DNA of 45,140 bases from Okeania sp. SIO1I7 (GTDB lineage: Bacteria > Cyanobacteriota > Cyanobacteriia > Cyanobacteriales > Microcoleaceae), in contig JAAHGF010000025.1 in NCBI GenBank assembly GCA_010672585.1, positions 1 through 45,140 on the forward strand, given 5' to 3'. Below are positions 24,710 to 42,800 of this stretch, piece after piece. The position numbers were made by a program, and so were the translations under genes. The notes under the pieces are model-generated. The model saw only the letters and a list, made by a program, of their open reading frames with translations, ran no database searches and was not told where the DNA came from. Within the stretch, counting starts at the first letter, position 1, and every line of letters starts with the position of its first letter.

Positions 24710-26524
24710 ATGAGTGAGACAGTGAAATATTCTACCCTAATAGACCTACTTCAGACTTTATCAGCAGAACAACCGGAAAAACTAGCATACACTTTTTTGG
24801 TTGACGGTAAAAAAGAAGGGGAACACTTTACCTATGCTTCACTAGAGCATCGAGTACGAGCTATTGCAGCATTGCTACAAAAACATGAAGTCAAAGGAGA
24901 GCGAGGTTTACTACTCTATCCACAAGGACTAGAAGCAATAGCAGCTTTTTGTGGTTGTCTATACTCTGGAGTTATCGCAATTCCAGTACCTCCTCCAGAA
25001 GCAGGTCGTCTCAAACGAACTTTGCCTAGACTCAGAGCGATAGTTCAAGATGCTCAAGCTTCCATAGTTCTGACAACGGCCACAATTATTTCTCTTGTAG
25101 AAGAAGTGGCTGATGAATTTCCTGAGTTCGAGACAATGCGCTGGATAGATACTGAATCTGTCGATCTAGAAATAGCTCAGGAATGGAAAGATCCGGGTAT
25201 TACTGGCGATACACTGGCTTATTTGCAGTATACCTCTGGTTCTACTTCTACTCCAAAAGGGGTAATGCTGACCCACAAAAACTTGATTCACCACTTAAGC
25301 TATTTACAGAGAGCTTGTGGGTACACGCCAGAAAGTAAAACTATTACCTGGATGCCTTTCTTTCACGATTATGGGTTAGTGGAAGGAATGATGGAACCCC
25401 TATATAATGGAACTCCATGCTACATCATGTCCCCATTCTCATTTGTGAAGCAACCTCTGAGATGGCTGCAAGCTCTGTCAAATTATAAAGGGACCCACTC
25501 TCAAGCACCTAACTTTGCTTATGACCTTTGTGTTCGCCGAGTTAAGCCAAAACAACTATCTACTTTAGACCTGAGTAATTGGGAAGCAGCAGGTAATGCG
25601 GCAGAACCTATTAACCCAAAAGTCATGGAGAGTTTCTATAGCACTTTCTCAGCTAGTGGTTTTCGCTGGAATGCCTTTGCCCCATGTTATGGACTAGCAG
25701 AGGATACTTTACTGGTTTCAGCCAAACCTAAACTCACAGAACCGGTACTTTGCACTATAGATGCAACAGCTTTAGTAGAAAAAAATAAAATTGTAGAAGT
25801 TTCTCCTGATGCAACAGGGGTAAGAGCTTACCCATCTTGTGGTCGCTTAGTTTGTGAAACTGAGGTAGCTATTGTTAATCCAGAAACTTTCGCAAAATGT
25901 GCTACTGATGAAGTGGGAGAGATTTGGGTATCAGACCCCAGTGTAGCTCAAGGCTACTGGGAACGTCCAGAAACTACTAAGGAAACATTCCAAGCTTACA
26001 TCAAAGATAGTGGAGAGGGTCCGTTCTTGCGGACTGGAGACCTGGGATTTATGAAAGATGGGGAGTTGTATATTACAGGTAGGATTAAAGATTTAATTAT
26101 TATCCGAGGTACAAATCATTATCCCCAAGATATTGAGTGGACAGTACAACAGGTTCATCCGGCACTTCGTCCAGATTATGGTGCAGCATTTTCAGTCGAA
26201 GTTCGGGGTGATGAACATTTAGTTATTGTTCAAGAGGTAGAACGTCGCACTCAAGATTTGGACGCTGAGAAAGTAATCAATGATATCCGCCAAGCTGTTT
26301 CAGAAGACCATGAATTACAAGCTTATGCTGTAATTTTGGCTAAGTCAGGAAATATTCTCAAGACTGCTAGTGGCAAGATTCAACGTCGTGCTTGTCGTTC
26401 CAACTTTTTGGCCGGAACTCTAGAGGTGATATCTGACTGGAGTGAAAATCCTCAACTAACCTCCAAGTATCGAAAGTTACAAGAAGAAGTTGAGTCATTA
26501 GCATCCCAAATGAAAAATAGCTAG
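24710..26524 (+). CDS. Fatty-acyl-AMP ligase (FAAL)
   Basis: A 604-aa adenylate-forming enzyme of the FAAL group, which activates a free fatty acid with ATP and hands the acyl-AMP to an acyl carrier protein rather than CoA. The nucleotide-binding loop TSGSTSTPKGV lies at 175-185. The FAAL-type stretch TWMPFFHDYGLVEGMMEPLYNG, then APCYGLAEDTL, RTGDLGF, and GRIKDLIIIRGTNHYPQDIEW follow in order. The C-terminal catalytic lysine is K556 in KTASGKIQRR. The ATG has no strong ribosome-binding site. It is the first gene of a three-gene cassette, 70 bp before the dehydrogenase and followed by the carrier, so the ACP at 28369 is the likely acceptor. FAAL rather than acyl-CoA ligase is supported by the FHDYGL motif and this context. 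Confidence 0.93.
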   Translation: MSETVKYSTLIDLLQTLSAEQPEKLAYTFLVDGKKEGEHFTYASLEHRVRAIAALLQKHEVKGERGLLLYPQGLEAIAAFCGCLYSGVIAIPVPPPEAGRLKRTLPRLRAIVQDAQASIVLTTATIISLVEEVADEFPEFETMRWIDTESVDLEIAQEWKDPGITGDTLAYLQYTSGSTSTPKGVMLTHKNLIHHLSYLQRACGYTPESKTITWMPFFHDYGLVEGMMEPLYNGTPCYIMSPFSFVKQPLRWLQALSNYKGTHSQAPNFAYDLCVRRVKPKQLSTLDLSNWEAAGNAAEPINPKVMESFYSTFSASGFRWNAFAPCYGLAEDTLLVSAKPKLTEPVLCTIDATALVEKNKIVEVSPDATGVRAYPSCGRLVCETEVAIVNPETFAKCATDEVGEIWVSDPSVAQGYWERPETTKETFQAYIKDSGEGPFLRTGDLGFMKDGELYITGRIKDLIIIRGTNHYPQDIEWTVQQVHPALRPDYGAAFSVEVRGDEHLVIVQEVERRTQDLDAEKVINDIRQAVSEDHELQAYAVILAKSGNILKTASGKIQRRACRSNFLAGTLEVISDWSENPQLTSKYRKLQEEVESLASQMKNS

Positions 26525-26594
26525 TGGGGCCAATGACATTTGCGTTCCGTAGAGCTACTGCTAACGCCCCTACAAAAAATTTAGGAGATTTAAC

Positions 26595-28397
26595 ATGGAT
26601 AAACTCAAGCAATATTGGGTAGCTGAAGAGTTAGAGCGTGCTCTTGGCGATCCAGAAAATCCAGACAGTACAATGTCTTTTAAGAGAGTAATTGAAATTG
26701 ATGAGAGTGAAGAATTTCCACATCAGGAAATTGAATGGCTCTATAATTGGAAGCTACAACATCACTATATCCCTGTTAATTGTGGGGGAGAGTTTACTTC
26801 TTTTGAAGAGTTTGTGGCCTTCGTTAGAGTTTTGTGTAGACGCGACCAAACAATTGGAATTGCTTTTACGACCATGTTTTGGTCTTTTATTACCTGGATG
26901 GCAGGTACAGAGGAACAAAAGCAAAAGTTAGCAACTTATATTAAAGATGAACATGGGACAATGTGCCTTGGTTACTCAGAGAAGGAACATGGTGCTGACC
27001 TGATTGGTGGAGATTTGACCGCAACAAAAGTTCCTGGAGGTTATCTACTTAATGGGGAAAAGTGGCCGATAAATCGTGCAACTATTTCTGGAGTATCTTA
27101 TATATTAGCAAAGACGGATCAAGAGGATGGAGGAGCTAGAGGTCTGTCTTTATTTATGGTAGAAAAAAGCCGACTAGACCCAGATAATTACTATAATTTA
27201 CCAAAAATTCTTACTCATGGAATTCGTGCTTCTGATATGAGTGGGATAGGTTTTAAGGATTGCTTTGTTCCCGAAGATATGTTGATCAAAGGGGAAGGAG
27301 CAGGTCTAGAAGTAGCTCTGAAAGGATTTCAAATTACTCGAACTTTATGTGCAGCTTTTTCTCATGGTGCTGCTGATACAGCTTTAAGAACTACACTAAA
27401 ATTTGCTATTAATCGGGTCATTTACAATAAAACAGTTTTTGACATTCCTCAACCTAGAAAAATTCTGGTAGATGCTTTTTTAGACCTGTTAATTTGTGAT
27501 TGTGAAACTATTGGAGCAGCAAGAGGATTTCATGTTATTCCTGAACAATTTAGTGTTTGGGCAGCAGTGGTGAAATATTTTGTTACTATTCAGTTAGAAA
27601 CAATGATTAATAATATTTCATCAGTGTTAGGTTCTCGTTTTTATATGCGAGAAGAACATGATTGGGGAATATTCCAAAAAGTGCTGAGAGATAATTCAAT
27701 TATTAGTGTATTTGATGGCAGTACAACTGTTAATTTGCACGCTCTAATTTTACAGTTTCGTCAGTTAACAAAACATCGTTCTCGACGGAATTCTGCTAAG
27801 ATGGAAGGAATTAAATCTCGTCTAGAAATCATCTTTTCCTTGGAGAAACAACTGCCTACTTTTGAACCAGAAAAACTGGAAATTACAGGGCGGGGTGCTG
27901 ATGATGCTTTACAAGGATTAGAAATTGCGTTAGAACAGTTAAAAGATTTAAAAACTGATAATTTAAACACTAAAGTTTTAGAGCAAATTACTGCACTGAC
28001 TGAGTGTGTTATTGCGGAAGTAAACGCTCACGATGAACAAATTGCTAATTCAGCATTTGAGTTTGGTCACAACCAGTCACCAGAATTATTTGAAATAGCG
28101 AAAAAATACTGTGCTTTACACGCTGCTGCTGCGTGTGTGCATATGTGGATTTATAACCGCGAAATACTGGGTGAATTTTTTGCAGGTGGTGAGTGGTTGG
28201 TACTATGTTTAAATCGTTTACTACAACCTTTTGGGCATTCACAAAAAGTAGACCAATTATATTGGGAAAAAGTTACTCAAGAAATGCTCAAACTTTATAA
28301 CGAAAATAAAGTATTTTCTATTGTTCCTTTTCAACTAGCACAAACTCAAAAACAGGAGAATAAAACAAATGCAAGTTCAGAACTCCAGCACGCTTAA
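26595..28397 (+). CDS. Acyl-CoA dehydrogenase-like flavoprotein, probably acting on acyl-ACP
   Basis: A 600-aa flavoenzyme of the acyl-CoA dehydrogenase family, expected to introduce a trans-2 double bond into the acyl chain. N-terminal, middle and C-terminal family domains are recognisable: CLGYSEKEHGADLIGGDLTATKV, NGEKWPINRATISGVSYILAKT, and the FAD-contact region RDNSIISVFDGSTTVNLHALI. The last motif normally reads YEGT with the catalytic glutamate; here the position is D374. The base may be aspartate, or glutamate elsewhere as in some subfamilies, or the activity may differ. An extra C-terminal helical domain of about 200 residues extends beyond the usual 380-400. A TAGGAGA ribosome-binding site precedes the ATG. 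It overlaps the ACP gene by 29 bp, implying coupled translation. Confidence 0.9.
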   Translation: MDKLKQYWVAEELERALGDPENPDSTMSFKRVIEIDESEEFPHQEIEWLYNWKLQHHYIPVNCGGEFTSFEEFVAFVRVLCRRDQTIGIAFTTMFWSFITWMAGTEEQKQKLATYIKDEHGTMCLGYSEKEHGADLIGGDLTATKVPGGYLLNGEKWPINRATISGVSYILAKTDQEDGGARGLSLFMVEKSRLDPDNYYNLPKILTHGIRASDMSGIGFKDCFVPEDMLIKGEGAGLEVALKGFQITRTLCAAFSHGAADTALRTTLKFAINRVIYNKTVFDIPQPRKILVDAFLDLLICDCETIGAARGFHVIPEQFSVWAAVVKYFVTIQLETMINNISSVLGSRFYMREEHDWGIFQKVLRDNSIISVFDGSTTVNLHALILQFRQLTKHRSRRNSAKMEGIKSRLEIIFSLEKQLPTFEPEKLEITGRGADDALQGLEIALEQLKDLKTDNLNTKVLEQITALTECVIAEVNAHDEQIANSAFEFGHNQSPELFEIAKKYCALHAAAACVHMWIYNREILGEFFAGGEWLVLCLNRLLQPFGHSQKVDQLYWEKVTQEMLKLYNENKVFSIVPFQLAQTQKQENKTNASSELQHA

Positions 28398-28776
28398 TAC
28401 TGAAGCAAAAACAGAAATTTCCCCCTTAGAAATCTTACAAAAGTGGATTGCTGAAAAGTTAGCAGAACAATTGAATGTTGACAAAAGTACTATCGAATTT
28501 ACCGAACCTTTAACTCGTTATGGTTTAGACTCAATTGATGCCGTAACTTTAGTTGGTGAGCTGGAAGATGAACTAGAATTAGAATTACCTTCTACTTTAT
28601 TTTGGGATTATCCAACTATAGAAAAATCTGCTGAATATTTAGTTTCTGAATTTGATATTTCTGAGGCATTAGAAAATTTGGAAAGCTCTGAAGAAAAAAC
28701 AGAAGAAGTGGAAAAAACTGCTGAAAAATCTGGTAAAGGTTGGGGTGGTTTTTGGAAGGGAGTAAGTGGTTCATAA
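28369..28776 (+). CDS. Acyl carrier protein with Glu-rich and Gly/Trp tail
   Basis: A 135-aa protein whose residues about 18-97 are an acyl carrier domain. The 4'-phosphopantetheine attachment site is S55 in YGLDSIDAV, and LELELPSTLFWDYPTI is the typical helix-III region of PKS/FAAL-associated carriers. After residue 97 an acidic, Glu-rich linker leads to a short tail GKGWGGFWKGVSGS, which could be an interaction peptide or membrane-touching segment. The start overlaps the dehydrogenase gene by 29 bp and is preceded by GGAGA. It is the likely acceptor of the FAAL-activated fatty acid and substrate of the dehydrogenase. No polyketide synthase or NRPS follows, so the acyl chain must have another destination. 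Confidence 0.93.
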   Translation: MQVQNSSTLNTEAKTEISPLEILQKWIAEKLAEQLNVDKSTIEFTEPLTRYGLDSIDAVTLVGELEDELELELPSTLFWDYPTIEKSAEYLVSEFDISEALENLESSEEKTEEVEKTAEKSGKGWGGFWKGVSGS

Positions 28777-28813
28777 AAGAACTGAAGAAACCTAGGAGAA
28801 AAGTCTTAGTTAT

Positions 28814-28859
28814 GTAAGCATTTCCTGCGGACTGCTACGCAAACAGCTATTAGCAGTCA
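28814..28859 (+). repeat. 46-bp repeat, copy 1 (inverted partner at 43019-43064)
   Basis: The sequence starts GTAAGCATTTCCTGCGGACT and ends near TAGCAGTCA. The reverse complement of 43019-43064 matches it with only two or three differences. The two copies bracket the genes from the first MBOAT to the second GT2. Confidence 0.85.
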
Positions 28860-28867
28860 GCACTTCC

Positions 28868-28908
28868 CTGCGGGATGCGCTCGCATTCAGCAATATAGCA
28901 TCCCGCAG
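28868..28908. repeat. Strong hairpin
   Basis: CTGCGGGATGC (28868-28878) pairs perfectly with GCATCCCGCAG (28898-28908) across a 19-nt loop. There is no T-tract after it, so it is not a classical terminator. It lies 92 bp past the ACP stop and may stabilise the 3' end of that transcript. Confidence 0.7.
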
Positions 28909-29269
28909 AAGGCAGAAGGCAGAAAGCAGAAGACAAAATCTTACCTGGTCTAAGTTTTAGACTCTTGAACTGTTCTAACCTTTGCTTCAACTGCTATAAT
29001 ATTCTGCTTTTGAGGGTAGGGTTGAAATTAAAATAGACTTGACAACTTTTGTTGTAAGATTTAATCTGGGCTGAATTAATACAGCTTTGAACGTTTACCA
29101 AAAGTAATAGCTAATAGCTGATAGCTGATGGCTCACGGCTGAATTTTTACTTAGTTTATACTAATGATTTTTAGTATAGATTAAGACTTTATCTTCAGAA
29201 AATTAAAAATCTTAGTTACCAATAAAAAATTGCTTTTGGTAACTAAAAAAGATTTCAATATTTCAGAGA

Positions 29270-29298
29270 TTGACAAATACCTCATACCATAATTTATT
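29270..29298 (+). promoter_or_regulatory. Possible promoter of the first MBOAT gene
   Basis: A perfect -35 hexamer TTGACA (29270-29275) is followed after 17 bp by TTTATT (29293-29298), four of six matches to a -10 box. The expected start point lies about 30-35 bp before the translation start. Confidence 0.4.
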
Positions 29299-29338
29299 GG
29301 GATAGGTCGCTATCAAGTATAGAGGAGGAAATAGTTAA

Positions 29339-30799
29339 TTGAATTTTTCTGATTTTTCCTTCTGGTGGGTGCTGCTGATTTTTAGTGTGCCTTTCTTCAC
29401 CATCCGCGCTCTAGGAAAAAGGTTAAACTTCTGGCAAGATTATTTTGATACCATTGGCTTGATGGTATTATCACTAACATTATTTTTAAATGCTAGTTTA
29501 AAAAGTTTTGCCGTATTTATATTTGAGGTAATTTTCAACTACATAATGGTGCGACTAATGTTGCAAAGACGTGGTTGGGAGTCAAGGGCGATCGCCACAT
29601 TTTTAATAGTATTTGATGTAGCGGTATTAGCATACTTTAAATATCTTACCTTTTTTGTAGAAGATGTAGTAGGTTTAGTGGTGGGAGGAATGCCTCCAAA
29701 TTGGGAACAAAGTTTTCCTTTACCAGTATTTAATAGAATTCCTCCAGGGATTTCTTTTTATACTTTTCAGATGGTGGCATTTGTTGTAGATTCTTTTACA
29801 GCTAAAAAGAAAAAGCCAATTAATTTCATAGATTACGTCAACTTTATCGCATTTTTCCCCCAAATTGTAGCAGGTCCAATCGAAAGACGTAAACAATTAT
29901 TACCCCAGTTAGAATCTTTTAAATTTCAATTTACTGTAGAAAACTTTGAATTAGGTTTGCGATGGTTATCTCTAGGTTTATTTATGAAATTTGTTCTAGC
30001 AGATAACATCACTCCATATATAGACCTACAACAAGCAACAAATGCTTTATTAGTTTGGTTTCATGCCTTTTTGTTTACTTTAAGAATATATTTTGACTTT
30101 GGTGGTTACAGCTTTATGGCTGTTGGTATCGCTAGATTTGTGGGAGTAAAACTAGAATTAAACTTTCTGGCACCCTACACTTCTGTGAGTATCCAAGAAT
30201 TTTGGCGACGTTGGCACATTACTCTGAGTAACTGGTTTAGGGACTATGTTTTTATCCCACTAATGGGTGCAAATAAAAAGTGGGCACCATTCTATTTATT
30301 TATAACTTTTACTCTTTCAGGCTTTTGGCACGGGGCAGCCTGGAATTTTATTTTATGGGGAGCTTATCACGGGGCATTATTATTGCTGATCAGATATGCT
30401 GGGAGACCTTTTCAGAGATTTGTGGGTAGATGGACCTCTAGAACTGATTTAGTGTCCTGGGCCTTGACGTTTATGTCCGTGACCCTGGGGTGTTTATTTT
30501 TTATGGAAACTAATATTAGTAGGTTGGGTACTAAGTTAGTAACTTTAGTGACACCAGGAGCTTATTCAATTTCTGGGGCGATCGATGCTTTTAGCTCTTA
30601 TAGCATAAATGAGGGTTGGGCTCTAGTTTTTACTTTAGCTGTGGCCATAGGGACATTATTTTTGGAACATTTGGCAGTTTGGCAACAGCGAGATGAATAT
30701 GAATTCTTGTTATCTCCTTGGATATCAAGAGGTCTGTTAGGTTTAACTATTTTGCTGGGGGCAACTATTCCTTCTGCATTTATTTACTTTGAGTTTTAA
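29339..30799 (+). CDS. MBOAT-family O-acyltransferase (AlgI/DltB-like), first copy
   Basis: A 486-aa polytopic membrane protein of the MBOAT family, which moves acyl groups across or at the membrane onto an extracytoplasmic acceptor. About ten hydrophobic segments are visible. Family motifs are PPGISFYTFQ, VAGPIERR, YFDFGGYSFMAVGIARFVG, WRRWHITLSNWFRDYVFIPL (H293) and the catalytic histidine H331 in SGFWHGAAWNF. Translation probably begins at the TTG, because AGGAGG stands 10 nt upstream (29323-29328) and there is no nearby in-frame ATG with such support. It is the nearest membrane acyltransferase after the FAAL-ACAD-ACP cassette, so it is the first candidate to accept the acyl chain from the carrier. 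The natural acyl donor is inferred. Confidence 0.92.
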   Translation: MNFSDFSFWWVLLIFSVPFFTIRALGKRLNFWQDYFDTIGLMVLSLTLFLNASLKSFAVFIFEVIFNYIMVRLMLQRRGWESRAIATFLIVFDVAVLAYFKYLTFFVEDVVGLVVGGMPPNWEQSFPLPVFNRIPPGISFYTFQMVAFVVDSFTAKKKKPINFIDYVNFIAFFPQIVAGPIERRKQLLPQLESFKFQFTVENFELGLRWLSLGLFMKFVLADNITPYIDLQQATNALLVWFHAFLFTLRIYFDFGGYSFMAVGIARFVGVKLELNFLAPYTSVSIQEFWRRWHITLSNWFRDYVFIPLMGANKKWAPFYLFITFTLSGFWHGAAWNFILWGAYHGALLLLIRYAGRPFQRFVGRWTSRTDLVSWALTFMSVTLGCLFFMETNISRLGTKLVTLVTPGAYSISGAIDAFSSYSINEGWALVFTLAVAIGTLFLEHLAVWQQRDEYEFLLSPWISRGLLGLTILLGATIPSAFIYFEF

Positions 30800-31024: not shown

Positions 31025-31945
31025 ATGAATTTACCAAATTTCATTGTTATAGGTGCAGCAAAATCAGGTACTACCTCTGTTTGGTCATACTTGAAGCAAC
31101 ATCCTCAAGTCTTTATGTCCAAGCCAAAAGAACCGAACTTCTTCATTTTTGAAGGGGTAAAGTTACCATATTATTCAGGACCTGATGATGAAGAGACGTT
31201 GATTAGAAAGCTTTATCAAGGTACTATTACTGACTTTGAGACTTATCAAACACTTTTTCAAGATGTGGGAGAAGCTAGAGCTATAGGTGAAGCTTCGGTG
31301 CGCTACTTATATTTTCCTCAAGCTGCGGAAAGGATTAAAAAGTATATTCCTGATGCCAAGATGATTATTATGTTACGCAACCCAGTAAATAGATTATATT
31401 CTCAGTATGTGATGAATGTTCGCGACTTACTGGAACCTTTGCCACTTAGTGAAGCAATTACTGCAGAAGATGAGAGAATTAGTAAAAATTGGGATTGTGC
31501 TTGGCACTACACTAAGTTAAGTAGTTATTACAATCAGGTAAAATTTTACTTAGATTTATTCTCTCCACAGCAAATTAAGGTAATTATTTATGAGGATTTT
31601 TGTCGAGATACTGTAGGTATTATGCAGGAATTATATCGCTTTATTGATGTAGATGATAGCTTTATACCAAACTGCTCTAAATCTAATTCAGGATATTGGC
31701 CTAAAAGTTTTCTTATCCATGGTTTGCTTAAGGAACCTAATGCTATTAAATTAACTTTAGAAAAGGCTTTGCCTAGAAAAACATACAATAAAGCTTTAAA
31801 GTTTTTTCATAAATCGAATAAAGGTGCTATACCGCCTATTCCGACTACTGTTAAAGATGATTTAAAACAGTTATTTCGGAAGGATATTTTAAATTTGCAA
31901 GAGCTTTTGGGGCGTCAAATACCGTGGTTAACGGATGAGATTTGA
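31025..31945 (+). CDS. PAPS-dependent sulfotransferase
   Basis: A 306-aa enzyme of the carbohydrate/heparan-type sulfotransferase group, which transfers sulfate from PAPS to hydroxyl or amino groups of glycans or lipids. The 5'-phosphosulfate loop is GAAKSGTTSVWSYL (K13 in the loop, residues 10-23), followed by PKEPNFF. The 3'-phosphate site is MLRNPVNRLYSQY, with R118 and S126. The length is usual for the family and no transmembrane segment is present, so it works in the cytoplasm. The ATG is used; upstream is a structured repeat. Its place among acyltransferases and glycosyltransferases suggests sulfation of an envelope glycan or glycolipid precursor; the acceptor is unknown. Confidence 0.92.
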   Translation: MNLPNFIVIGAAKSGTTSVWSYLKQHPQVFMSKPKEPNFFIFEGVKLPYYSGPDDEETLIRKLYQGTITDFETYQTLFQDVGEARAIGEASVRYLYFPQAAERIKKYIPDAKMIIMLRNPVNRLYSQYVMNVRDLLEPLPLSEAITAEDERISKNWDCAWHYTKLSSYYNQVKFYLDLFSPQQIKVIIYEDFCRDTVGIMQELYRFIDVDDSFIPNCSKSNSGYWPKSFLIHGLLKEPNAIKLTLEKALPRKTYNKALKFFHKSNKGAIPPIPTTVKDDLKQLFRKDILNLQELLGRQIPWLTDEI

Positions 31946-33660: not shown

Positions 33661-35547
33661 ATGACAGTAAGTATGGAAAAGGAAAAAAATAATTTAAGTG
33701 CCAGACTGGAAAAATTGTTTGGTTTAGATTTACGATCGCTTGCTCTATTTAGAGTAGGATTAGCATTAGTAATTATTGTAGATTTAATTATCCGTGCAGG
33801 AGATTTAAGGTCTCTTTATAGTGATGCTGGAGTTATGCCTCGGACATTACTTAAGGACATTGCAAATCCCTTTTATTGGTCAATAAATTCAATTAGTGGC
33901 GAACCTTTTGTACAGGGTTTAATTTTCTTAATTGTTGGATTAATTGCGATAGCTTTGTTGGTAGGATATCGAACTAGATTAGCAACTATTGCTATGTGGG
34001 CATTTGTTATTTCTATTCAAAATAGAAATCCAGCTTTAAGTTTTGCTGGGGATGCTGTACTGCGTGCTTTGCTTTTTTGGGCAATGTTTTTACCATTAGG
34101 AGCAAGTTATTCAATAGATAGCGCTCTTAATTCTTCACCAGAAAAATTACCTAAACGTATTGCTTCTGCTGCTACTGTGGCACTGATGATTCAAATAGTG
34201 CTGATTTATGCAGGTTCGGCAGCTTATAAGACTAAAAGTGATATTTGGTGGCCTGATGGAGATGCGGTTTATTATGCTTTGAGTTTTGATGGCTATGCTA
34301 CGCCATTTGGGCAATTTTTACTAGGTTTTCCTGAACCTATATTAAAGTTACTAACCTGGGTAGCTCTTTGGTTTGAATGGTTAGGACCTTTGATGATTTT
34401 TATTCCTGTTGGAATTACATTTTTCCGCTGCGTTTCCGTGGTTTTATTTATTCTTTTACATATTAGTTTTGGTTTATCTTTTGAACTAGGGGTATTTCCT
34501 TATTTATGTGTGGTTATTTGGTTGGCTTTTATTCCTACGGCAGTCTGGGATAATTGGGAGAAAAAAAATCAGACTAATGAACGTCAAGGATTGAGAATTT
34601 ATTATGATGCAGATTGTGGATTTTGTAAGAAAGTTGTTTATCTGTTACGCACATTTTTAATATTACCAGGAACGCCATTAACTACTGCTCAAACTGATGA
34701 ATCTATCTATGCTGATATGCAGGATAAAAATTCTTGGGTTGTTGTAGACTGGCAAGAAAATCGACATTTTAAGTGGGAAGCTTTGGTTTATGTATTTAGT
34801 TTATCTCCTATTTTTAAACCTTTGGCTTTCTTGATGGGATTATCAGCGATAATACCTCTAGGAACGAAATTTTATGAATCTATTGCTAATAATAGAAAGT
34901 TTGCTGGTAATTTTACTAAACCATTGCAATTTCGCCCTCTAAATGTAGGTTCTAATTTAGGATTAAATATTGTTGTATCTTTACTACTTTTCTATACTTT
35001 GATTTGGAATGTTAAAGGTTTTGTTCAACAAACTTATAACAGAAGAGAAGAGAAGAAACAGGATTTAATTACTAAAGCTGACAAATTATTTAAACGTCGC
35101 ACTGTACAACAGTTAGATGTATTTAGTAGGGTGACAAGATTAGACCAATTATGGAGTATTTTTGCACCTGCTCCACCGAGAGATGATGGTTGGCACGTTA
35201 TTCAGGGTAATTTAAAAAATGGGAAAGAGGTTGATGTTTTATATGAGAAAGGAGAGTCTGTAAATTGGGATAAACCGACGATGAAACAATTTAATAAGCT
35301 GTATAAAAATATGCAGTGGCGGAGTTATTTTGTGACTCTAAATCGAGCTATGGGTCGAAAACTTTATCCTTATTATGCAGAGTATGTTTGTCGTGAATGG
35401 AATAGGAAACATGAGGGTTCTGAAAAATTAGAAAGTTTGGATATTTTTTATATGGATGAGAGAACTGTACCGCCAGGAGAAACACAAACTGTGGAAAAGA
35501 AAAATATTATGCAAAAATCTTGTTCGGATGAGCAAAAAGAAAATTAG
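33661..35547 (+). CDS. HTTM-domain membrane protein fused to a DCC (DUF393) domain
   Basis: A 628-aa fusion. Residues about 20-300 form an HTTM (vitamin-K-dependent gamma-carboxylase-like transmembrane) domain, with RSLALFRVGLALVIIVDLI at the start and many later helices. From about residue 310 a DCC-family, thioredoxin-like domain begins: YYDADCGFCKKVVYLLR, with C319 and C322 in the DxxCGFC motif. A further transmembrane helix near 440 and a C-terminal soluble domain containing LWSIFAPAPPRDDGWHVI follow. HTTM proteins are membrane enzymes or redox partners of poorly known function; DCC proteins are predicted thiol-disulfide oxidoreductases. The ATG start has no strong ribosome-binding site. 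It belongs to the envelope locus by position. Confidence 0.9.
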   Translation: MTVSMEKEKNNLSARLEKLFGLDLRSLALFRVGLALVIIVDLIIRAGDLRSLYSDAGVMPRTLLKDIANPFYWSINSISGEPFVQGLIFLIVGLIAIALLVGYRTRLATIAMWAFVISIQNRNPALSFAGDAVLRALLFWAMFLPLGASYSIDSALNSSPEKLPKRIASAATVALMIQIVLIYAGSAAYKTKSDIWWPDGDAVYYALSFDGYATPFGQFLLGFPEPILKLLTWVALWFEWLGPLMIFIPVGITFFRCVSVVLFILLHISFGLSFELGVFPYLCVVIWLAFIPTAVWDNWEKKNQTNERQGLRIYYDADCGFCKKVVYLLRTFLILPGTPLTTAQTDESIYADMQDKNSWVVVDWQENRHFKWEALVYVFSLSPIFKPLAFLMGLSAIIPLGTKFYESIANNRKFAGNFTKPLQFRPLNVGSNLGLNIVVSLLLFYTLIWNVKGFVQQTYNRREEKKQDLITKADKLFKRRTVQQLDVFSRVTRLDQLWSIFAPAPPRDDGWHVIQGNLKNGKEVDVLYEKGESVNWDKPTMKQFNKLYKNMQWRSYFVTLNRAMGRKLYPYYAEYVCREWNRKHEGSEKLESLDIFYMDERTVPPGETQTVEKKNIMQKSCSDEQKEN

Positions 35548-35699: not shown

Positions 35700-37181
35700 A
35701 TGTTATTTAATTCTTACGTTTTTATCTTTTGTTTTTTACCTTTAACTCTGATTATATTCTTTGGTTTAACGAGATTTGGTTTAGTTAAGGCTGCAAAAGT
35801 TTGGTTGACAGCTAGTTCTTTTGCTTTTTACGGTTATTGGAATGTTGCTTATTTGCCTTTGCTGATAATTTCAATTTTATGGAATTATCAAATGGGAAAA
35901 TTTATTGCTGAGGCTAAACCTGAAAGTAAGCAAGCAAATGTTTTACTTTGGGTAGGTATAGCTGTTAATTTAGCAATAATTTCTTATTATAAATATGCGA
36001 ACTTTTTCTTGGATACTGTTAATTCAGTAGTTTCTACAAATTTGAATGCTGGGCAAATTATTTTGCCTTTGGCTATTTCTTTTTATACTTTTACTCAAAT
36101 AGCTTATTTAGTTGATGCTTATCGTGGGGAAACAAGAGAGACGAATTATGACTTATTAACTTATAGTTTATTTGTGGTTTTCTTCCCTCAATTAATCGCC
36201 GGACCTATTTTACGCCACGATGAACTTATTCCCCAGTTTCGTCAATTGCGTAGTTATATTTTTTCCCAGAAAAATATGGCTTTGGGTTTAAGTCTTTTTA
36301 GTCTGGGATTATGTAAAAAAGTTTTGATAGCTGACACTATATCCCCTTGGGTAGCACTAGCTTTTAATAATGCTGCGGATTTGAGTTTTATTGAAGCTTG
36401 GGTGGGAGCTTTAAGTTACACTTTTCAGCTATATTTTGATTTTTCTGGTTATTCTGATATGGCGATAGGTTTGGGGTTGATGTTTAATATTAAATTACCA
36501 ATTAATTTTAACTCTCCCTACAAGGCTACTTCTATTAGTGATTTTTGGCGAAGATGGCATATTACTTTATCCAATTTTCTGAGAGATTATTTATATATTC
36601 CTCTGGGTGGAAGTCGTCGTGGAGAAGTGCGTCGTTATAGTAATCTTTTGACAACGATGCTGTTAGGTGGATTATGGCATGGTGCAGGTTGGACTTATGT
36701 AGTTTGGGGAGGGTTACATGGTGTTTATTTATGTATTAATCATGGTTGGCGAAAGTTAAATATTCCGATGCCAAAAGTATTGGCATGGGTAATTACTTTT
36801 ATTGCTGTTATTGTTAGTTGGGTTTTATTTAGAGCGCAAAATTTTCAGGATGGTCTAGATATTTTACAGACAATGTCGGGTCTGAATGGAGTAGTTATAC
36901 CAGGGGAAGCTAAAGGTAAATTATCTGTGTTAACTAATTTTGGTTTTCAACTCCAATCTTGGAAAAGTATGACTTATCTGCCGGAATTTTTAGGGAGTAA
37001 AATCTTCTCAATTTTGACTTTAATAGCTTTAACTTTTTCTGTAAGTTTCTTACCGAATACTCAGGATATTTTGGCAAAATTGAAACCTAATTGGTGGTGG
37101 GCAGTTTGGATTGGTGTTTTGACAAGTATGGCTTTATTATCGTTGAATCGTGTGTCTGAATTTCTTTATTTCCAATTTTAA
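35700..37181 (+). CDS. MBOAT-family O-acyltransferase (AlgI-like), second copy
   Basis: A 493-aa polytopic MBOAT protein closer to the AlgI type. It starts MLFNSYVFIFCFLPLTLIIFF, as AlgI proteins do, and carries LPLAISFYTFTQIAYLVDAY, LIAGPILRHDE, YFDFSGYSDMAIGLGLMF, FWRRWHITLSNFLRDYLYIPLGG (H287) and the catalytic histidine H327 in GGLWHGAGWTYVVWGGLHG. AlgI-type proteins transfer acyl (often acetyl) groups to polysaccharides together with an AlgJ/AlgX-like partner. The two SGNH-like genes immediately downstream (27 bp after the stop) fill that place. It differs clearly from the MBOAT at 29339, so the pair probably serves different steps or acceptors. Confidence 0.93.
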   Translation: MLFNSYVFIFCFLPLTLIIFFGLTRFGLVKAAKVWLTASSFAFYGYWNVAYLPLLIISILWNYQMGKFIAEAKPESKQANVLLWVGIAVNLAIISYYKYANFFLDTVNSVVSTNLNAGQIILPLAISFYTFTQIAYLVDAYRGETRETNYDLLTYSLFVVFFPQLIAGPILRHDELIPQFRQLRSYIFSQKNMALGLSLFSLGLCKKVLIADTISPWVALAFNNAADLSFIEAWVGALSYTFQLYFDFSGYSDMAIGLGLMFNIKLPINFNSPYKATSISDFWRRWHITLSNFLRDYLYIPLGGSRRGEVRRYSNLLTTMLLGGLWHGAGWTYVVWGGLHGVYLCINHGWRKLNIPMPKVLAWVITFIAVIVSWVLFRAQNFQDGLDILQTMSGLNGVVIPGEAKGKLSVLTNFGFQLQSWKSMTYLPEFLGSKIFSILTLIALTFSVSFLPNTQDILAKLKPNWWWAVWIGVLTSMALLSLNRVSEFLYFQF

Positions 37182-37208: not shown

Positions 37209-38435
37209 ATGAGTATAAATAATCGACTTAGTTCGACTTATTCCCAAGCTTCATCTCCACAAAAATCAGAAAAAATTGTAGGAAGTAAAAGAAAATATCG
37301 CCGATATAATTGGATATTTTTACTGTCAGTATTTCTCCCTGTAGTTACTGTAGGAGTATTCAATATTATTGTCGATCCTTATGATGTGTTTAATACTCCA
37401 AATTTCTTGGGAATAAATCATTCAAAACCACGGAAAGATAATAGCGATCGCCTATTTAAAGCAACTGATATTATTCGGATGAAACCTGTAACGGTTTTAC
37501 TAGGTTCTTCTAGAACAAAACGCGCTCTAGATCCAAATCATCCTGCTTTAGAAAATCATCAGCCAGCTTATAATTTAGCACTTAATAGTATTAATTCTTA
37601 TGAAGTACGACGTTATTTAGAACACGCAATAGCTAATCAAAAACAGTTAGGGTTAGTTATTGTTAGCTTGGATTTTTTTATGTTCCGTAAATCTAACACT
37701 AATGAAGCAAATTTTTCTGAACAGAGATTGGAAAAAAAGCATATTTATTTCAAGGATTTAATAGATTTAACATTTTCTCTAGATGTATTATCGGCAAGTA
37801 AAGAAACCATAATTGATAGTAAAAAAACTTTGCCAGAACAACTTCGTTATGGAGAAAAAAATGGATTTATGCCTAAGCTCAATCTAGATAGAAATGAAAT
37901 TGAGTCAAGATTTAAAAAATATATAAATGTTTACTATAAATCTTACACAGAGCAGTATCAACTATCTAATCAATACTTAGATGAACTAAAAAAAATAGTA
38001 GATTTATGCCAAGAAAATCAAATTAAACTAATGTTATTTATTTCTCCATCTCATGCAACTCAGTGGGAAGCAATTAGAAGTTCAGGTAAATGGTCGATAT
38101 TTGAAGACTGGAAACGTAAAGTTGTAGAAATTACTCCCGTATTTGACTTTTCTGGATACAACAATATCACAACAGAACCTATTAGTAATGACATGAAAAA
38201 CTACACAGATAATTCTTATTATACTAAGGAAGTAGGAAATTTGGTTTTGAATAAGCTCTTATCCTACAAAGAAGAAGAAGTTCTAAAGGATTTTGGAATT
38301 TTAATTAATCCAGAAAATATTGAATCTCATCTCGCTAAAATTCGTCAAGAGCGAGAAATTTGGGCTAAAAATAATCCTGATGAAGTGAAATTGGTACAAG
38401 AAATTAAACAAAAGTATGATGCCTCACTAAATTAG
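37209..38435 (+). CDS. Membrane-anchored SGNH/AlgJ-DltD-like protein, paralogue 1 (DxxH histidine lost)
   Basis: A 408-aa protein with one N-terminal transmembrane helix (about 34-54) and an extracytoplasmic domain. GSSR (S100/S101, in LLGSSRTKRALDP) resembles the nucleophile block of SGNH esterases and of DltD/AlgJ-like partners of MBOAT proteins; FISPSHATQWEAI is a further conserved block. At the C-terminal DxxH position the sequence is D334-N-S-Y337, so the expected histidine is tyrosine. Its neighbour keeps the histidine, so this copy may be a pseudoenzyme or binding subunit. It lies 27 bp after the MBOAT gene, almost certainly in one transcript. The family is not named with certainty; the role as MBOAT partner is inferred from context. 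Confidence 0.82.
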   Translation: MSINNRLSSTYSQASSPQKSEKIVGSKRKYRRYNWIFLLSVFLPVVTVGVFNIIVDPYDVFNTPNFLGINHSKPRKDNSDRLFKATDIIRMKPVTVLLGSSRTKRALDPNHPALENHQPAYNLALNSINSYEVRRYLEHAIANQKQLGLVIVSLDFFMFRKSNTNEANFSEQRLEKKHIYFKDLIDLTFSLDVLSASKETIIDSKKTLPEQLRYGEKNGFMPKLNLDRNEIESRFKKYINVYYKSYTEQYQLSNQYLDELKKIVDLCQENQIKLMLFISPSHATQWEAIRSSGKWSIFEDWKRKVVEITPVFDFSGYNNITTEPISNDMKNYTDNSYYTKEVGNLVLNKLLSYKEEEVLKDFGILINPENIESHLAKIRQEREIWAKNNPDEVKLVQEIKQKYDASLN

Positions 38436-38493
38436 ATAAAATTTATATTGAAGATATTAAATTAACTGAAGTCTACTTACTTGGATTTATAAT

Positions 38494-39714
38494 ATGAGCA
38501 TTAATAATCAACTTAGTTCTACTTATTCTCAAGCTTCATCTCCCCAAAAATCAGAAAAAATTCTGGGAAATAGAAAAAAATATCGCAGATATAATTGGAT
38601 ATTTTTGTTGTCAGCATTTATGCCTATAGTAGGTGTAGGAGTATTCAATATTATTGTCGATCCTTATGATGTATTTAATACTCCTAATTTATTAGGAATA
38701 AATCATTCAAAACCACGGAAAGATAATAGCGATCGCCTGTTTAAAGCAAATGATATTATTCGGATTAAACCTATAACAATTTTGATTGGTTCATCCAGAA
38801 CAAAACAAGGTTTAGATCCAAATCATCCAGCATTAGAAAATGAGCAAACTGCTTATAATTTATCTTTGAATGGTCTAAATATTTATGAATTACGACGATA
38901 TATAGAACACGCGATCGCTAACCAGAAAGAATTAGATTTGATTATTCTTGGCTTAGATTTTTTCATGTTTAATACATTTTTAGAAAATCAACCGAGCTTT
39001 TCTGAAAATAGATTAGAAAAACGGCATATTTCTTTAGCAGATTTTGTCAATGTAACCTTTTCTTCAGATGCACTTTTAGCAAGTAAAGAAACTATAGTTG
39101 ATAGTCAAAAAAATCCACCAGATAATATTGATTATGGAGAAAATGGATTTATGCCATATCGAAATCCTGACCCAGAAAAAACTGAGTGGAGATTTAGAAA
39201 TAGTATCAATGTTTATTATGGATTTCATGCTAAATATGAATTACCTAGTGAGTTAACTGAATTGAAAAAAATCGTAGATTTGTGTCAACAAAATCAAATC
39301 AAATTAATCTCATTTATTTCTCCTTCTCATGCAACTCAGTGGGAAGCAATTCGAGCAACAGGTGAATGGTCAACTTTTGAAAAATGGAAACGTGAAGTTG
39401 TAGCAATTACTCCTGTATTTGATTTTTCTGGATACAACAATATTACATCTGAATCTATCCATAATGAGATGGAAAATTATACAGATAATTCTCATTATAC
39501 TCCTAGAGTAGGAAATTTAATTTTGAACCGAGTTCTTAATTATAAACAGGGAGATGTTCCAGATGATTTTGGAATTTTAATTAATTCAGAAAATATAGAA
39601 TCTCATTTAGAAAAAATTCGTCAAGACCGTGAAATTTGGGCTAAAAATAATTCTGATGAAGTGGAGTTGGTTAAAGAAATAAAACAAAAGTATGATGAAA
39701 AACTGGCAGATTGA
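38494..39714 (+). CDS. Membrane-anchored SGNH/AlgJ-DltD-like protein, paralogue 2 (DxxH intact)
   Basis: A 406-aa paralogue of the preceding gene, alike throughout, including the N-terminal helix, DPYDVFNTPN, HSKPRKDNSDRLFKA and GSSRTKQGLDPNHPA (S100/S101). The C-terminal motif is D331-N-S-H334, a complete DxxH dyad as in SGNH hydrolases. It could therefore act as an esterase or acyl-transfer partner of the adjacent MBOAT on the outer side of the membrane. The tandem arrangement (58 bp apart) and near-identical N-terminal DNA indicate gene duplication. The C-terminal 40 residues are a charged helix shared by both copies. Two HIP1 octamers fall in this gene. Confidence 0.84.
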   Translation: MSINNQLSSTYSQASSPQKSEKILGNRKKYRRYNWIFLLSAFMPIVGVGVFNIIVDPYDVFNTPNLLGINHSKPRKDNSDRLFKANDIIRIKPITILIGSSRTKQGLDPNHPALENEQTAYNLSLNGLNIYELRRYIEHAIANQKELDLIILGLDFFMFNTFLENQPSFSENRLEKRHISLADFVNVTFSSDALLASKETIVDSQKNPPDNIDYGENGFMPYRNPDPEKTEWRFRNSINVYYGFHAKYELPSELTELKKIVDLCQQNQIKLISFISPSHATQWEAIRATGEWSTFEKWKREVVAITPVFDFSGYNNITSESIHNEMENYTDNSHYTPRVGNLILNRVLNYKQGDVPDDFGILINSENIESHLEKIRQDREIWAKNNSDEVELVKEIKQKYDEKLAD

Positions 39715-39717
39715 AGA

Positions 39718-39751
39718 AGGAAGAAGTAAGAAGTAAGAAGTAAGAAGTAAG
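39718..39751. repeat. Heptamer tandem run (GAAGTAA)
   Basis: Four to five copies of the 7-bp unit GAAGTAA directly after the second SGNH-like gene. Confidence 0.9.
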
Positions 39752-39847
39752 AAAGAAGGCAGAATAATTGCAGAAAAATCACTCTTGCAATTCTCTACTC
39801 CCCTACTCAAGAAAATAATGGGGTGCTAATATATATTGTTATTTAAT

Positions 39848-40816
39848 ATGCTTTCAGAACAAGAGAAAGTACAACTGTCTATAGTTATACCTTTTTACAA
39901 CGAGGAACTAAATATTGATCGTTTATTTGAGCGACTAATATCAGTACTAGACCTTCTCGAAATGACTTATGAAATAATATGTATTGATGATGGTAGTAAA
40001 GATAATACTCTAAAGTTATTAGTTGAATATTATCAACGCAATTCCTCAATTAAAGTAGTAAACTTTTCCCGTAACTTTGGTAAAGAAATTGCTATAACAG
40101 CAGGTATTGACTATGCTTTAGGCGATGCAGTTATACCTATAGATGCCGATCTGCAAGACCCACCAGAATTAATTGGAGAACTTATAGCTAAGTGGCAAGA
40201 GGGATATGATGTGGTCTACGCAACTAGGCGATCGCGACAAGGAGAAAGTTGGCTCAAACAATTCACGGCCCAAAGATTTTATCGTACAATTCAACGTTTG
40301 ACCCCTGTAGAAATTCCGCCCGATACTGGGGACTTCAGGTTAATGGACCGAAAAGTTGTAGAAGCTCTCAAAAAGTTGCCAGAAACTAACCGTTTTATGA
40401 AGGGTTTATTTTCCTGGGTAGGTTATCAACAAACTTCAATATTATATGACCGAGGTCTTCGTTTCAAAGGTGAAACAAAATGGAATTATTGGCAACTCTG
40501 GAATTTAGCAATTGAAGGTATTACTGCTTTTAGTTCAATACCTCTCAAAATTTGGAGCTATATTGGGATATCAATTTCTTTAATTTCATTTATTTATGCT
40601 AGCTTTTTAGTGATTCGGACTTTGATATTTGGAATTGATGTTCCTGGTTATGCTTCATTAATAGTAGCGATATTATTTTTAGGTGGAATGCAGTTATTAT
40701 CTCTCGGAATTTTGGGTGAATATTTAGGTCGCGTTCATGAAGAAGTTAAGAGAAGACCTCTTTATTTAGTTAGGGAAAGCTATGGGTTTAAAAATCAGAT
40801 TACTAGGAGTGAGTAA
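39848..40816 (+). CDS. Polyprenyl-phosphate-type GT2 glycosyltransferase with two C-terminal TM helices
   Basis: A protein of about 322 aa of the DPM1/GtrB/ArnC-like GT2 group, which transfers a sugar from a nucleotide donor to undecaprenyl (polyprenyl) phosphate on the cytoplasmic face. The GT-A domain has LSIVIPFYNEELNI, CIDDGSKDNT, VNFSRNFGKE and the metal-binding DADLQDPPE (D103/D105 counted from the TTG at 39836), then GDFRLMDRKV. Two transmembrane helices near 235-295 and a basic tail (YLGRVHEEVKRRPLYLV) are typical of the group. The open frame begins with TTG at 39836, but the ATG at 39848 is the more likely start because the domain follows at once. It probably supplies lipid-linked sugar for extracytoplasmic glycosylation. 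Confidence 0.92.
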   Translation: MLSEQEKVQLSIVIPFYNEELNIDRLFERLISVLDLLEMTYEIICIDDGSKDNTLKLLVEYYQRNSSIKVVNFSRNFGKEIAITAGIDYALGDAVIPIDADLQDPPELIGELIAKWQEGYDVVYATRRSRQGESWLKQFTAQRFYRTIQRLTPVEIPPDTGDFRLMDRKVVEALKKLPETNRFMKGLFSWVGYQQTSILYDRGLRFKGETKWNYWQLWNLAIEGITAFSSIPLKIWSYIGISISLISFIYASFLVIRTLIFGIDVPGYASLIVAILFLGGMQLLSLGILGEYLGRVHEEVKRRPLYLVRESYGFKNQITRSE

Positions 40817-40882
40817 TCTCACAATTTTTGTCATTAAATAAAAAATACTAAAGCAGTAATTTTGGGTCGGAGTAGAGATGCA

Positions 40883-41584
40883 ATGTTCAATTTTAAAACT
40901 GGTATTTTTATCCTGACAATTATTTGTATAATTGCCACCGGAATAGCAGCTTATTTATTAGGTGGTTTAGCTCCAGAACAAATTCAAACTTGGCTAGAAC
41001 GAGCAGGTATTTGGGCACCAATAATCTATATAGTTATTTATACGATAGCAACTATCTTAGTTTTACCTTCTACAGCACTTAATCTGGCTGGAAGAGCAAT
41101 TTTTGGACCGTGGATAGGTACATTATGGGCAAGTGTAGCAGCTATAATTGCGGCAATTATCGCATTTTATTACTCTCGTACTATAGGTAGAGAATGGATT
41201 TCTCAAAAGTTGGCTGGAAGATGGCAAGCAATGGATGCTGAAATGCGTCAGGGAGGATTATTTTATATGTTTGCTATTCGTTTATTACCAATTATTCCTT
41301 ATGGTTTAGTAAATTTTGCTGCTGGTTTAACATCTGTTAGTTTTAAAGATTATTTGTTAGGTACTATCTTAGGAACTGTACCTGGTGTTTTGCCTTTTGT
41401 AATGTTAGGAAGTTCTGGTTTAACAGCATTAAAAACAGGTGACGTTTTACCTTTAATTGGAGCATTAAGTCTCATCGCAATGTTAGTAGGAGAGGCAACT
41501 TGGTATCGTCGCCGTCGCAGTCTACCAAAGAAAGTTATAGAAGAAATTAATAAATCATCTTCATCAGATTTTTCTAATGATTAA
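40883..41584 (+). CDS. TVP38/TMEM64-type (VTT domain) membrane protein
   Basis: A protein of about 233 aa of the VTT (DedA/TVP38-TMEM64, SNARE-associated Golgi) superfamily. It has about five hydrophobic segments with FGPWIGTLWASVAAI, the FYYSRTIGREW turn and the core FAIRLLPIIPYGLVNFAAGLT followed by FKDYLLGTILGTVPG. Relatives of this superfamily recycle polyprenyl phosphate or scramble phospholipids across membranes. Lying between two polyprenyl-phosphate-type glycosyltransferases, it may move or recycle their lipid carrier. The frame extends to a TTG at 40862, but ATG 40883, with GGAGTAGAG upstream, is preferred. Confidence 0.88.
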   Translation: MFNFKTGIFILTIICIIATGIAAYLLGGLAPEQIQTWLERAGIWAPIIYIVIYTIATILVLPSTALNLAGRAIFGPWIGTLWASVAAIIAAIIAFYYSRTIGREWISQKLAGRWQAMDAEMRQGGLFYMFAIRLLPIIPYGLVNFAAGLTSVSFKDYLLGTILGTVPGVLPFVMLGSSGLTALKTGDVLPLIGALSLIAMLVGEATWYRRRRSLPKKVIEEINKSSSSDFSND

Positions 41585-41798
41585 ATTACTGTTTGTTAAT
41601 CTCCAAAAATAACCAAATAACAAAAAATAAAAATTATTCATCAGGAAAATCAGGTGAAAAAAATTAATTAATAAAATCAATCAAATGCTCGAGTTAAAGT
41701 AATAAATAAAAATTAAAATAGATAAACTCCAAGTTTTAATCCCAGACCGTGATAAAATTATACTAAGTTTTTTGATCAAAAAGTTTAGGTACATAAAA

Positions 41799-42800
41799 AT
41801 GAGTGACTATCTATCAACTCAAGAGATGGCGTTGCAGACAAACTCTCCGACTAAAACAGATTTATCTATAGTTACACCTATTTATAATGAAGTCGATAGT
41901 ATTCCCCAATTACTAGAAACAATTTCTACTACTTTAATAGAAAATCAACTTACTTACGAAATTATCTGTATAGATGATGGTTCTCAGGATGGTTCGACAA
42001 AACTACTAACAGAATTAGCTCAAAAACGTACAGATTTAAAAGCAGTAATTCTCCGCCGAAATTATGGACAAACTGCAGCTATGGCGGCAGGGTTTAAGTA
42101 TGCTACAGGGAAAGTAATTGTCACTTTAGATGGAGACTTACAAAATGATCCGGCTGATATTCCACTATTATTATCTAAGCTAGATGAGGGTTATGATTTG
42201 GTGAGTGGGTGGCGAAAAAATAGGCAGGATGATGCTGTTACACGACTTCTTCCTTCTAAAATTGCTAATTGGATAATTGGTAAAGTTACAGGGGTAAATT
42301 TACATGATTATGGTTGTTCTTTAAAAGCTTATCGTTTGGAATTAGTTGCTGATATGAATCTTTATGGTGAATTACATAGATTTTTACCAGCTTTAGCTTT
42401 TATTGAAGGGGCAAGAATTACAGAAATACCTGTAAAACATTATGCTCGTCGCTATGGTCAAAGTAAGTATGGTCTAGGGCGAACTTTTCGAGTTGTGATG
42501 GATTTATTAACAGTATTTTTTATGAAAAAATTCCTCACTAGACCGATGCACGTTTTTGGAATGTTGGGTTTGGTTTCTGGTGCATTTGGTATATTTTTTG
42601 GGATTTATTTAACTATCCTAAAATTTGGCTTTAACGAAAGGATTGGCGATCGCCCTCTACTAATTTTAGTTGTTGTCTTATTACTTGCAGGTTTACAATT
42701 ATTTAGTTTTGGTTTATTGGCAGAATTACTGATGCGAACTTATCACGAATCTCAAGAACGACCTATTTATCGAGTTAGAGAAATTGTTGGTAGAAATTAA
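41799..42800 (+). CDS. Second polyprenyl-phosphate-type GT2 glycosyltransferase
   Basis: A protein of about 333 aa, related to the one at 39848 but clearly different. LSIVTPIYNEVDSIP, CIDDGSQDGST, ILRRNYGQTAAMAAG and the metal-binding DGDLQNDPADIP (D120/D122 counted from the TTG at 41772) mark the GT-A domain. GCSLKAYRLELVADM, RRYGQSKYGLGRTFRV and two C-terminal transmembrane helices follow, with the tail RTYHESQERPIYRVREI. It likely makes a polyprenyl-phosphate sugar different from that of its neighbour. The frame begins with TTG; the ATG at 41799 is preferred. It is the last gene of the plus-strand locus, and an inverted 46-bp repeat lies 220 bp further on. Confidence 0.92.
   Translation: MSDYLSTQEMALQTNSPTKTDLSIVTPIYNEVDSIPQLLETISTTLIENQLTYEIICIDDGSQDGSTKLLTELAQKRTDLKAVILRRNYGQTAAMAAGFKYATGKVIVTLDGDLQNDPADIPLLLSKLDEGYDLVSGWRKNRQDDAVTRLLPSKIANWIIGKVTGVNLHDYGCSLKAYRLELVADMNLYGELHRFLPALAFIEGARITEIPVKHYARRYGQSKYGLGRTFRVVMDLLTVFFMKKFLTRPMHVFGMLGLVSGAFGIFFGIYLTILKFGFNERIGDRPLLILVVVLLLAGLQLFSFGLLAELLMRTYHESQERPIYRVREIVGRN

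Follow-up and report, generated by a model that had tools for sequence, protein, structure and literature searches.

What brings a fatty acyl-AMP ligase (FAAL), an acyl-CoA-dehydrogenase-fold enzyme (ACAD) and an acyl carrier protein (ACP) together with a DltB-like membrane acyltransferase (MBOAT1) in a cyanobacterium? The question is raised by a locus of Okeania sp. SIO1I7 that lies within the window, by which we mean the whole stretch of 45,140 nt analysed (contig JAAHGF010000025.1, positions 1 to 45,140; host genome of 9.48 Mb in 109 contigs). We propose, with a probability of roughly 0.7, that the locus belongs to a carrier-fed MBOAT-SGNH transmembrane acylation pathway, in which a carrier of the Dlt type is joined to an acyl shuttle of the PatA type. 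The proposal draws on which genes are present, on their order and co-occurrence and on the decay of several of them within the same genome, as well as on conserved motifs and the SGNH-type fold of the model of a further protein, DLTD. The core of the locus is FAAL, ACAD, ACP, MBOAT1, DLTD, an NDH-2-like flavoprotein and an HTTM-DCC membrane protein (HTTM). Its members in the window are as follows (lengths in amino acids, aa).

24710..26524, plus strand: FAAL, fatty acyl-AMP ligase, 604 aa, the probable loading enzyme (PF00501; NCBIfam FAAL models; PDB relatives)
26595..28397, plus strand: ACAD, acyl-CoA-dehydrogenase-fold enzyme, 600 aa, putative acyl-ACP 2,3-dehydrogenase (PF02770/PF00441)
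28369..28776, plus strand: ACP, carrier protein, 135 aa (PF00550; GLDSI motif)
29339..30799, plus strand: MBOAT1, DltB-like membrane acyltransferase, 486 aa (PF03062; DltB relatives in the PDB)
30779..30796, plus strand: FIYFEF codons at the C-terminus of MBOAT1, at the end of its open reading frame (ORF), the Tyr being the putative acyl-shuttle residue
32139..33383, plus strand: NDH-2-like flavoprotein, 414 aa, core member (PF07992)
33661..35547, plus strand: HTTM-DCC membrane protein, 628 aa, core member (PF05090 and PF04134)

A search with ACAD of 388 genomes of the order (E ≤ 1e-90) gave a match in 81, and 81 regions around the matches were prepared, own genome excluded. We analysed 60 loci of at most 19.9 kb each; the regions left out were mainly on short contigs, and contig ends truncate many of those that remain. 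In 54 of these loci the identity of ACAD reached 60% or more; the other six (L139-L144), at 36–49%, were handled separately. The genus-mate G002 carries an ACAD that is 99% identical. Counted on the ACAD strand only, ACP was present in 52 of the 54 loci, MBOAT1 in 42, FAAL in 34, the NDH-2-like gene in 33, and DLTD (a protein of ~310 aa) and HTTM in 26 each; all seven core genes stood in one locus in 20. A second acyltransferase gene, MBOAT2, was found in 16/54 loci, as were copies of the SGNH1/2 type, which were counted on both strands; MBOAT2-SGNH is an optional extension of the core. In a clustering of neighbouring genes (the 60 loci plus 20 later ones), in which MBOAT1 and MBOAT2 merge into one cluster, each core family spans 11 to 16 taxonomic families; after the core come the SGNH1/2 type, in seven families, and an FkbM methyltransferase, in four. 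Named ACAD carriers include Okeania, Hydrocoleum, Coleofasciculus, Crocosphaera, Chroococcus, Hyella and Anabaena azotica.

Beyond single loci, a close ACAD occurs in 76, MBOAT1 in 75 and DLTD in 77 of the 388 genomes; 72 have all three, 79 have any and 309 have none, five genomes with an ACAD of only 44–50% identity being scored as non-carriers. ACAD and MBOAT1 occur together in 73 genomes, ACAD without MBOAT1 in 3 and MBOAT1 without ACAD in 2. Fisher values for co-occurrence are near 1e-72 when relatedness is ignored. FAAL orthologues (≥64% identical) and HTTM orthologues (≥54%) were found in 18 of 18 carriers tested. At E ≤ 1e-180, 45 genomes out of a sample of 291 had HTTM, and every one of them belongs to the 79 carriers, of which the sample may cover only a part. 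Co-occurrence extends to genomes in which the genes are not linked: in the g67 genomes the core genes are scattered, with ACAD-ACP at one site, FAAL and HTTM elsewhere, and MBOAT1-DLTD-NDH2 together at a separate site (two genomes inspected). In a sample of 386 genomes of the phylum, 18 had MBOAT1, and a single one of these 18 does not belong to the order; DLTD had no match among PLSDB plasmids.

Seven genomes are exceptions to joint occurrence. Three (G203, G292, G011) are 77–83% complete, three (G044, G308, G340) have broken genes, and the seventh is G049. In G340 (L201), fragments of FAAL, ACAD, MBOAT1, DLTD and HTTM lie together and in order. In G308 (L203) ACAD has an open frame, whereas DLTD and HTTM are each broken up into short ORFs; a close MBOAT1 was not found there. 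ACAD and MBOAT1 are interrupted in G044 (L189), where decay is partial because the frames of DLTD and HTTM, the latter with a match spanning residues 107–572, are open. In many cyanobacteria, then, the core genes appear for the most part to be retained or lost as a set.

MBOAT1 has DltB as its sole sequence relative in the PDB (E about 1e-24). Each of 48 aligned copies keeps His293 and His331, as expected of the conserved catalytic His of the MBOAT family. Its C-terminus has the form FXYXXF in all 48 and reads exactly FIYFEF in 45. In the available part of PMC12148441, the Tyr of the FXYXXF motif of PatA is auto-acetylated and passes the group to an SGNH partner, and in Dlt systems the motif is located on DltX. 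The motif is common and by itself not special; what is special is its combination with a carrier.

The SGNH protein that MBOAT1 works with is likely to be DLTD. Its gene is outside the window, on another contig of this Okeania genome, and a sulfotransferase gene occupies the slot that it holds in relatives. There it comes 3' of MBOAT1, with a 1-nt overlap in 15 of 31 neighbouring pairs. DLTD has an N-terminal hydrophobic helix, and its alignment shows a conserved Ser and a conserved FADTHxHL motif. It had no Pfam match and no sequence relative in the PDB; a fold search with its model points to an SGNH-type fold. The sequence-only reading had listed two SGNH/DltD/AlgJ-like proteins in the window, SGNH1 and SGNH2; we set these aside as partners of MBOAT1, since it is DLTD that adjoins MBOAT1 and tracks it across genomes. 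One Coleofasciculus genome (L066 and L090) has two DLTD copies in immediate succession, and in the second of them another residue takes the place of the middle His of FADTHYHL.

FAAL scores 322–455 bits against the FAAL-type models of NCBIfam, none at the curated cut-off. The top model, an NRPS/PKS with a FAAL region (517 bits), and the best model named for a CoA ligase (297 bits) are likewise below cut-off. Its PDB relatives (E ≤ 1e-40) are 7r7e, 3kxw, FadD32, FadD23 and FadD28. The ligase is therefore nearer to FAALs than to acyl-CoA ligases, which argues against D-alanine as the acyl group. The ACP gene, whose product carries a GLDSI motif, overlaps that of ACAD by 29 nt, and the overlap is common among relatives. 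Asp374 of ACAD aligns to what we take to be the position of the usual catalytic Glu of medium-chain acyl-CoA dehydrogenase; it is Asp in 57 of 57 copies at least 60% identical, and may act as the base despite the missing Glu. The electron-transfer flavoprotein (ETF) domain PF01012 was found in none of 20 carrier genomes, with 10 of 14 controls positive. We therefore rejected ETF as the electron acceptor of ACAD; a role in beta-oxidation is unlikely and the electrons must go elsewhere. From the family membership of FAAL and ACAD, the acyl group would be a fatty acid, alpha,beta-unsaturated.

The same cassette also stands before other enzymes. In five f8 genomes (G126, G042, G070, G092, G216; L139-L143) a divergent FAAL-ACAD-ACP is followed by an Aminotran_1_2 enzyme and a short-chain dehydrogenase, as judged by Pfam for L139 and L141 and from gene order, sequence start and neighbour clustering for the other three. 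In L141 the aminotransferase-fold domain lies behind ACP within one protein, and L142-L143 are similar in length. The Aminotran_1_2 enzyme looks SPT/AONS-like, and the cassette would then resemble an acyl-ACP-fed sphingoid-type pathway in cyanobacteria. In G049 (L202) FAAL-ACAD-ACP is followed by a condensation-carrier protein; no close MBOAT1, DLTD or HTTM was found in that genome. These arrangements support FAAL-ACAD-ACP as a delivery module, of which G049 shows a different use. Because the cassette precedes other consumers, it is by itself no proof of use by MBOAT1.

From these observations we infer the chemical steps, the acyl group and the acceptor of a pathway that would run as follows. 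FAAL would adenylate its substrate, a carboxylic acid that is probably a fatty acid, and load it onto the dedicated ACP, on which ACAD would most likely oxidise the bound acyl group at C2-C3. At the cytoplasmic face, MBOAT1 would accept the acyl group from the carrier and pass it to the Tyr of its own FIYFEF. Membrane-anchored DLTD would move it from that Tyr to its own Ser, and then to an envelope acceptor.

Several points weigh against this pathway. MBOAT1 reaches 183 bits against a cut-off of 375 for TIGR04091 LTA_dltB, and an FXYXXF-type motif likewise closes the three remaining MBOATs of this genome. In the window 562 nt separate ACP from MBOAT1, and DLTD is unlinked to the locus. The DLTD motif is D-T-H-x-H rather than a clean DxxH, the second copy (45% identical) has FGDTVYHL, and the fold matches listed for the DLTD model do not include DltD, an absence still compatible with a DltD fold. 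The co-occurrence statistic is uncorrected for relatedness, with FAAL, ACP and NDH-2 outside the comparison with non-carriers. In G044 the DLTD frame has stayed open despite the interruption of ACAD and MBOAT1. G049 has the cassette without MBOAT1, DLTD or HTTM, and elsewhere the cassette precedes an aminotransferase-fold enzyme.

The two remaining core proteins are putative co-inherited redox-type partners. The PDB relatives of the NDH-2-like protein are themselves NDH-2-like (best E 4.6e-30), and 42 of 43 copies have an acidic residue at position 196, which we take to belong to the usual NADH site. By its neighbourhood the protein is a candidate electron acceptor for ACAD; because the acidic residue is kept, it may rather make quinol, and the idea that it replaces ETF without using NADH is weakened. 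HTTM conserves Lys190 and the DCC cysteines Cys319 and Cys322 in 35 of 35 copies; it has no sequence relative in the PDB, and we presume a relation to vitamin-K carboxylase. Its AlphaFold model was poor (mean pLDDT 47.5) and was not used. Two further HTTM paralogues of this genome (L195, G000:C1, and L196, G000:C43) are 59% and about 45% identical, and no other core pathway gene was found beside them. Tentatively, the system might go further and form a third MBOAT-SGNH class, redox-coupled, with a Dlt-like carrier and a PatA-like fused shuttle: a fatty acyl group would be 2,3-dehydrogenated on the carrier without ETF, and export of the enoyl product to the envelope would involve a quinone-thiol branch made up of NDH-2 and HTTM-DCC. 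We regard this fuller version as possible and, on balance, doubtful.

What else could the genes do? The product might be a small acylated secreted compound or a membrane lipid, MBOAT1-DLTD acylating a lipid or small molecule and not an envelope polymer. The patchy distribution of ACAD among genomes speaks for this, as do cyanobacterial FAALs known from natural products, going by the available part of PMC11837247. Against it, many taxonomic families share one uniform gene set, and a Pfam scan of 24 of the 36 ORFs listed for the window showed no polyketide synthase or non-ribosomal peptide synthetase partner, in agreement with the sequence-only reading. A lipid acceptor is still compatible with both points, and we judge the explanation unlikely. 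A second alternative would make MBOAT1-DLTD an acetyl-CoA-fed O-acetyltransferase of the PatA/PatB kind, with FAAL-ACAD-ACP making a separate lipid that shares the same biological role. Such acetyl-CoA-fed systems with a fused shuttle motif are described (PMC12148441, available part), MBOAT1-DLTD is unlinked from ACAD-ACP in the g67 genomes, and the cassette precedes other consumers elsewhere. Yet an acetylation system has no need of a carrier, MBOAT1 shares locus and strand with ACAD in 42 of the 54 loci, and the two are co-inherited even when unlinked; we consider this improbable. Chance adjacency in a large genome, which the sequence-only reading had allowed for, fits GT2a, VTT, GT2b and the sulfotransferase, which are indeed local, and we reject it for the core, whose genes keep their order and co-occur, also when unlinked, leaving it a negligible probability.

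With carrier-fed acylation as the preferred reading, the rest of the window locus can be set beside it.

31025..31945, plus strand: sulfotransferase, local gene outside the conserved set (PF13469)
35700..37181, plus strand: MBOAT2, 493 aa, optional extension, C-terminus FLYFQF (PF03062)
37209..38435, plus strand: SGNH1, 408 aa, optional (motif read by eye, without family match)
38494..39714, plus strand: SGNH2, 406 aa, optional, probable MBOAT2 partner, motif intact (motif read by eye, without family match)
39836-40816, plus strand: GT2a, local neighbour (Pfam GT2)
40862-41584, plus strand: VTT, local neighbour (Pfam VTT)
41772-42800, plus strand: GT2b, local neighbour (Pfam GT2)

The thirteen named ORFs are all located at 24710-42800 on the plus strand, at intergenic distances of -29 to 562 nt. 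The locus is free of opposing genes, as had been read, apart from a single opposing ORF of at least 80 aa, an 81-aa ORF with a TTG start at 26367-26612. Promoter scan scores were below, and terminator scan scores within, the range of shuffled sequence, so an operon structure or single transcript is not demonstrated. Pfam confirms eleven of the family names given earlier (in gene order AMP-binding, acyl-CoA dehydrogenase, PP-binding, MBOAT, sulfotransferase, Pyr_redox_2, HTTM with DCC1-like, MBOAT, GT2, VTT and GT2); the FAAL type was read from NCBIfam and PDB relatives, and neither SGNH1 nor SGNH2 has a family match in Pfam or NCBIfam. The idea of thirteen families inherited in order held for the core, which keeps its order across many cyanobacterial families, and failed for the sulfotransferase, GT2a, VTT and GT2b, found on the ACAD strand in 1, 1, 2 and 1 of the 54 loci. 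We therefore reject a thirteen-gene unit, and a sulfated, glycosylated acceptor as a general property is not supported. GT2a and GT2b resemble undecaprenyl-phosphate glycosyltransferases, below the model cut-off.

MBOAT2 ends in FLYFQF in 17 of 17 copies, and SGNH2 is its probable partner. The GSSR...DxxH motifs of SGNH1 and SGNH2 were read by eye from 26 aligned copies; in the SGNH1 of the window Tyr replaces the His of DxxH that the other 25 copies carry, which suggests a dead or repurposed duplicate. The SGNH2 profile had no sequence match in the PDB, and its comparison with that of DLTD gave a probability of 1.7 (E 0.03). In other loci an FkbM-type methyltransferase adjoins DLTD or MBOAT1 (L103, L114, L119, L175, L176, L178, L179, L189); its cluster covers nine genomes of four families (Pfam run on L175 only). 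PMT_2-type glycosyltransferases lie near pathway genes in three genomes (L127, L136, L191), a possible hint at a glycosylated or lipid-linked acceptor.

Our literature search, which most subscription papers lay outside and which does not show absence from print, found no paper joining FAAL with MBOAT in cyanobacteria; none joining FAAL, acyl-CoA dehydrogenase, O-acyltransferase and acyl carrier protein in cyanobacteria; and none on an HTTM domain with MBOAT, or on MBOAT with SGNH and an acyl carrier protein. If the proposal is right, MBOAT-SGNH transmembrane acyl transfer extends from small groups (acetyl, D-alanyl) to a carrier-bound, probably fatty, acyl group, and carrier loading can be combined with a fused shuttle in one pathway. 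The redox-coupled version, if true, would give an acyl-ACP dehydrogenase a defined use in envelope modification. The work also yields a list of co-inherited genes in widespread cyanobacteria, including those for HTTM-DCC and the NDH-2-like protein. In organisms of this kind, the chemistry of the cell surface has a bearing on how colonies and mats form.

How, then, does the system compare with those already known? Like Dlt, the system for D-alanylation of teichoic acid (DltA, DltC, DltB, DltX, DltD), it has an adenylating enzyme, a carrier, a DltB-like MBOAT and an SGNH-type protein with an N-terminal hydrophobic helix, and the adenylating enzyme and carrier are co-inherited with the MBOAT (FAAL in the 18 carriers tested; ACP in the ACAD loci, loci only). 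Unlike Dlt, the ligase is of the FAAL type and not a D-Ala ligase, ACAD, NDH-2-like and HTTM-DCC proteins are added, and the shuttle motif is fused to MBOAT1 instead of residing on DltX, no search for a separate DltX ORF having been made. To our knowledge, cyanobacteria are without teichoic acids. The Dlt-type logic of the sequence-only reading is upheld and reinforced by the DltB relatives of MBOAT1, the SGNH gene that follows it in relatives and the co-occurrence of unlinked genes; with its own shuttle motif, MBOAT1 is not plain Dlt, and the reading as a whole holds in part.

The fused C-terminal FXYXXF and separate SGNH partner are shared with O-acetyltransferases of the PatA/PatB and AlgI/AlgJ type, which MBOAT2-SGNH2 fits best. 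Those differ in that here a ligase, ACAD and a carrier are co-inherited, the use of the carrier by MBOAT1 being probable; for MBOAT/SGNH pathways other than Dlt, acyl-CoA is reported as the donor and a comparable carrier protein as missing (PMC12148441, available part). In Rhodobacteria, according to the available part of PMC9386255, sphingolipid synthesis likewise has a ligase and a dedicated ACP feed a downstream enzyme, serine palmitoyltransferase; the likeness is seen here in the five genomes where the divergent cassette precedes an aminotransferase-fold enzyme, whereas the MBOAT1 loci have another downstream enzyme and product. Loading of an ACP by a FAAL also recalls the cyanobacterial FAAL-ACP starters of lipopeptides and olefins (PMC11837247, available part), except that the window has ACAD and MBOAT-SGNH in place of a polyketide synthase or non-ribosomal peptide synthetase. 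We therefore file the system neither as a Dlt system, given its fused shuttle and different ligase, nor as a carrier-less system of the PatA type; the Dlt analogy holds for its working logic.

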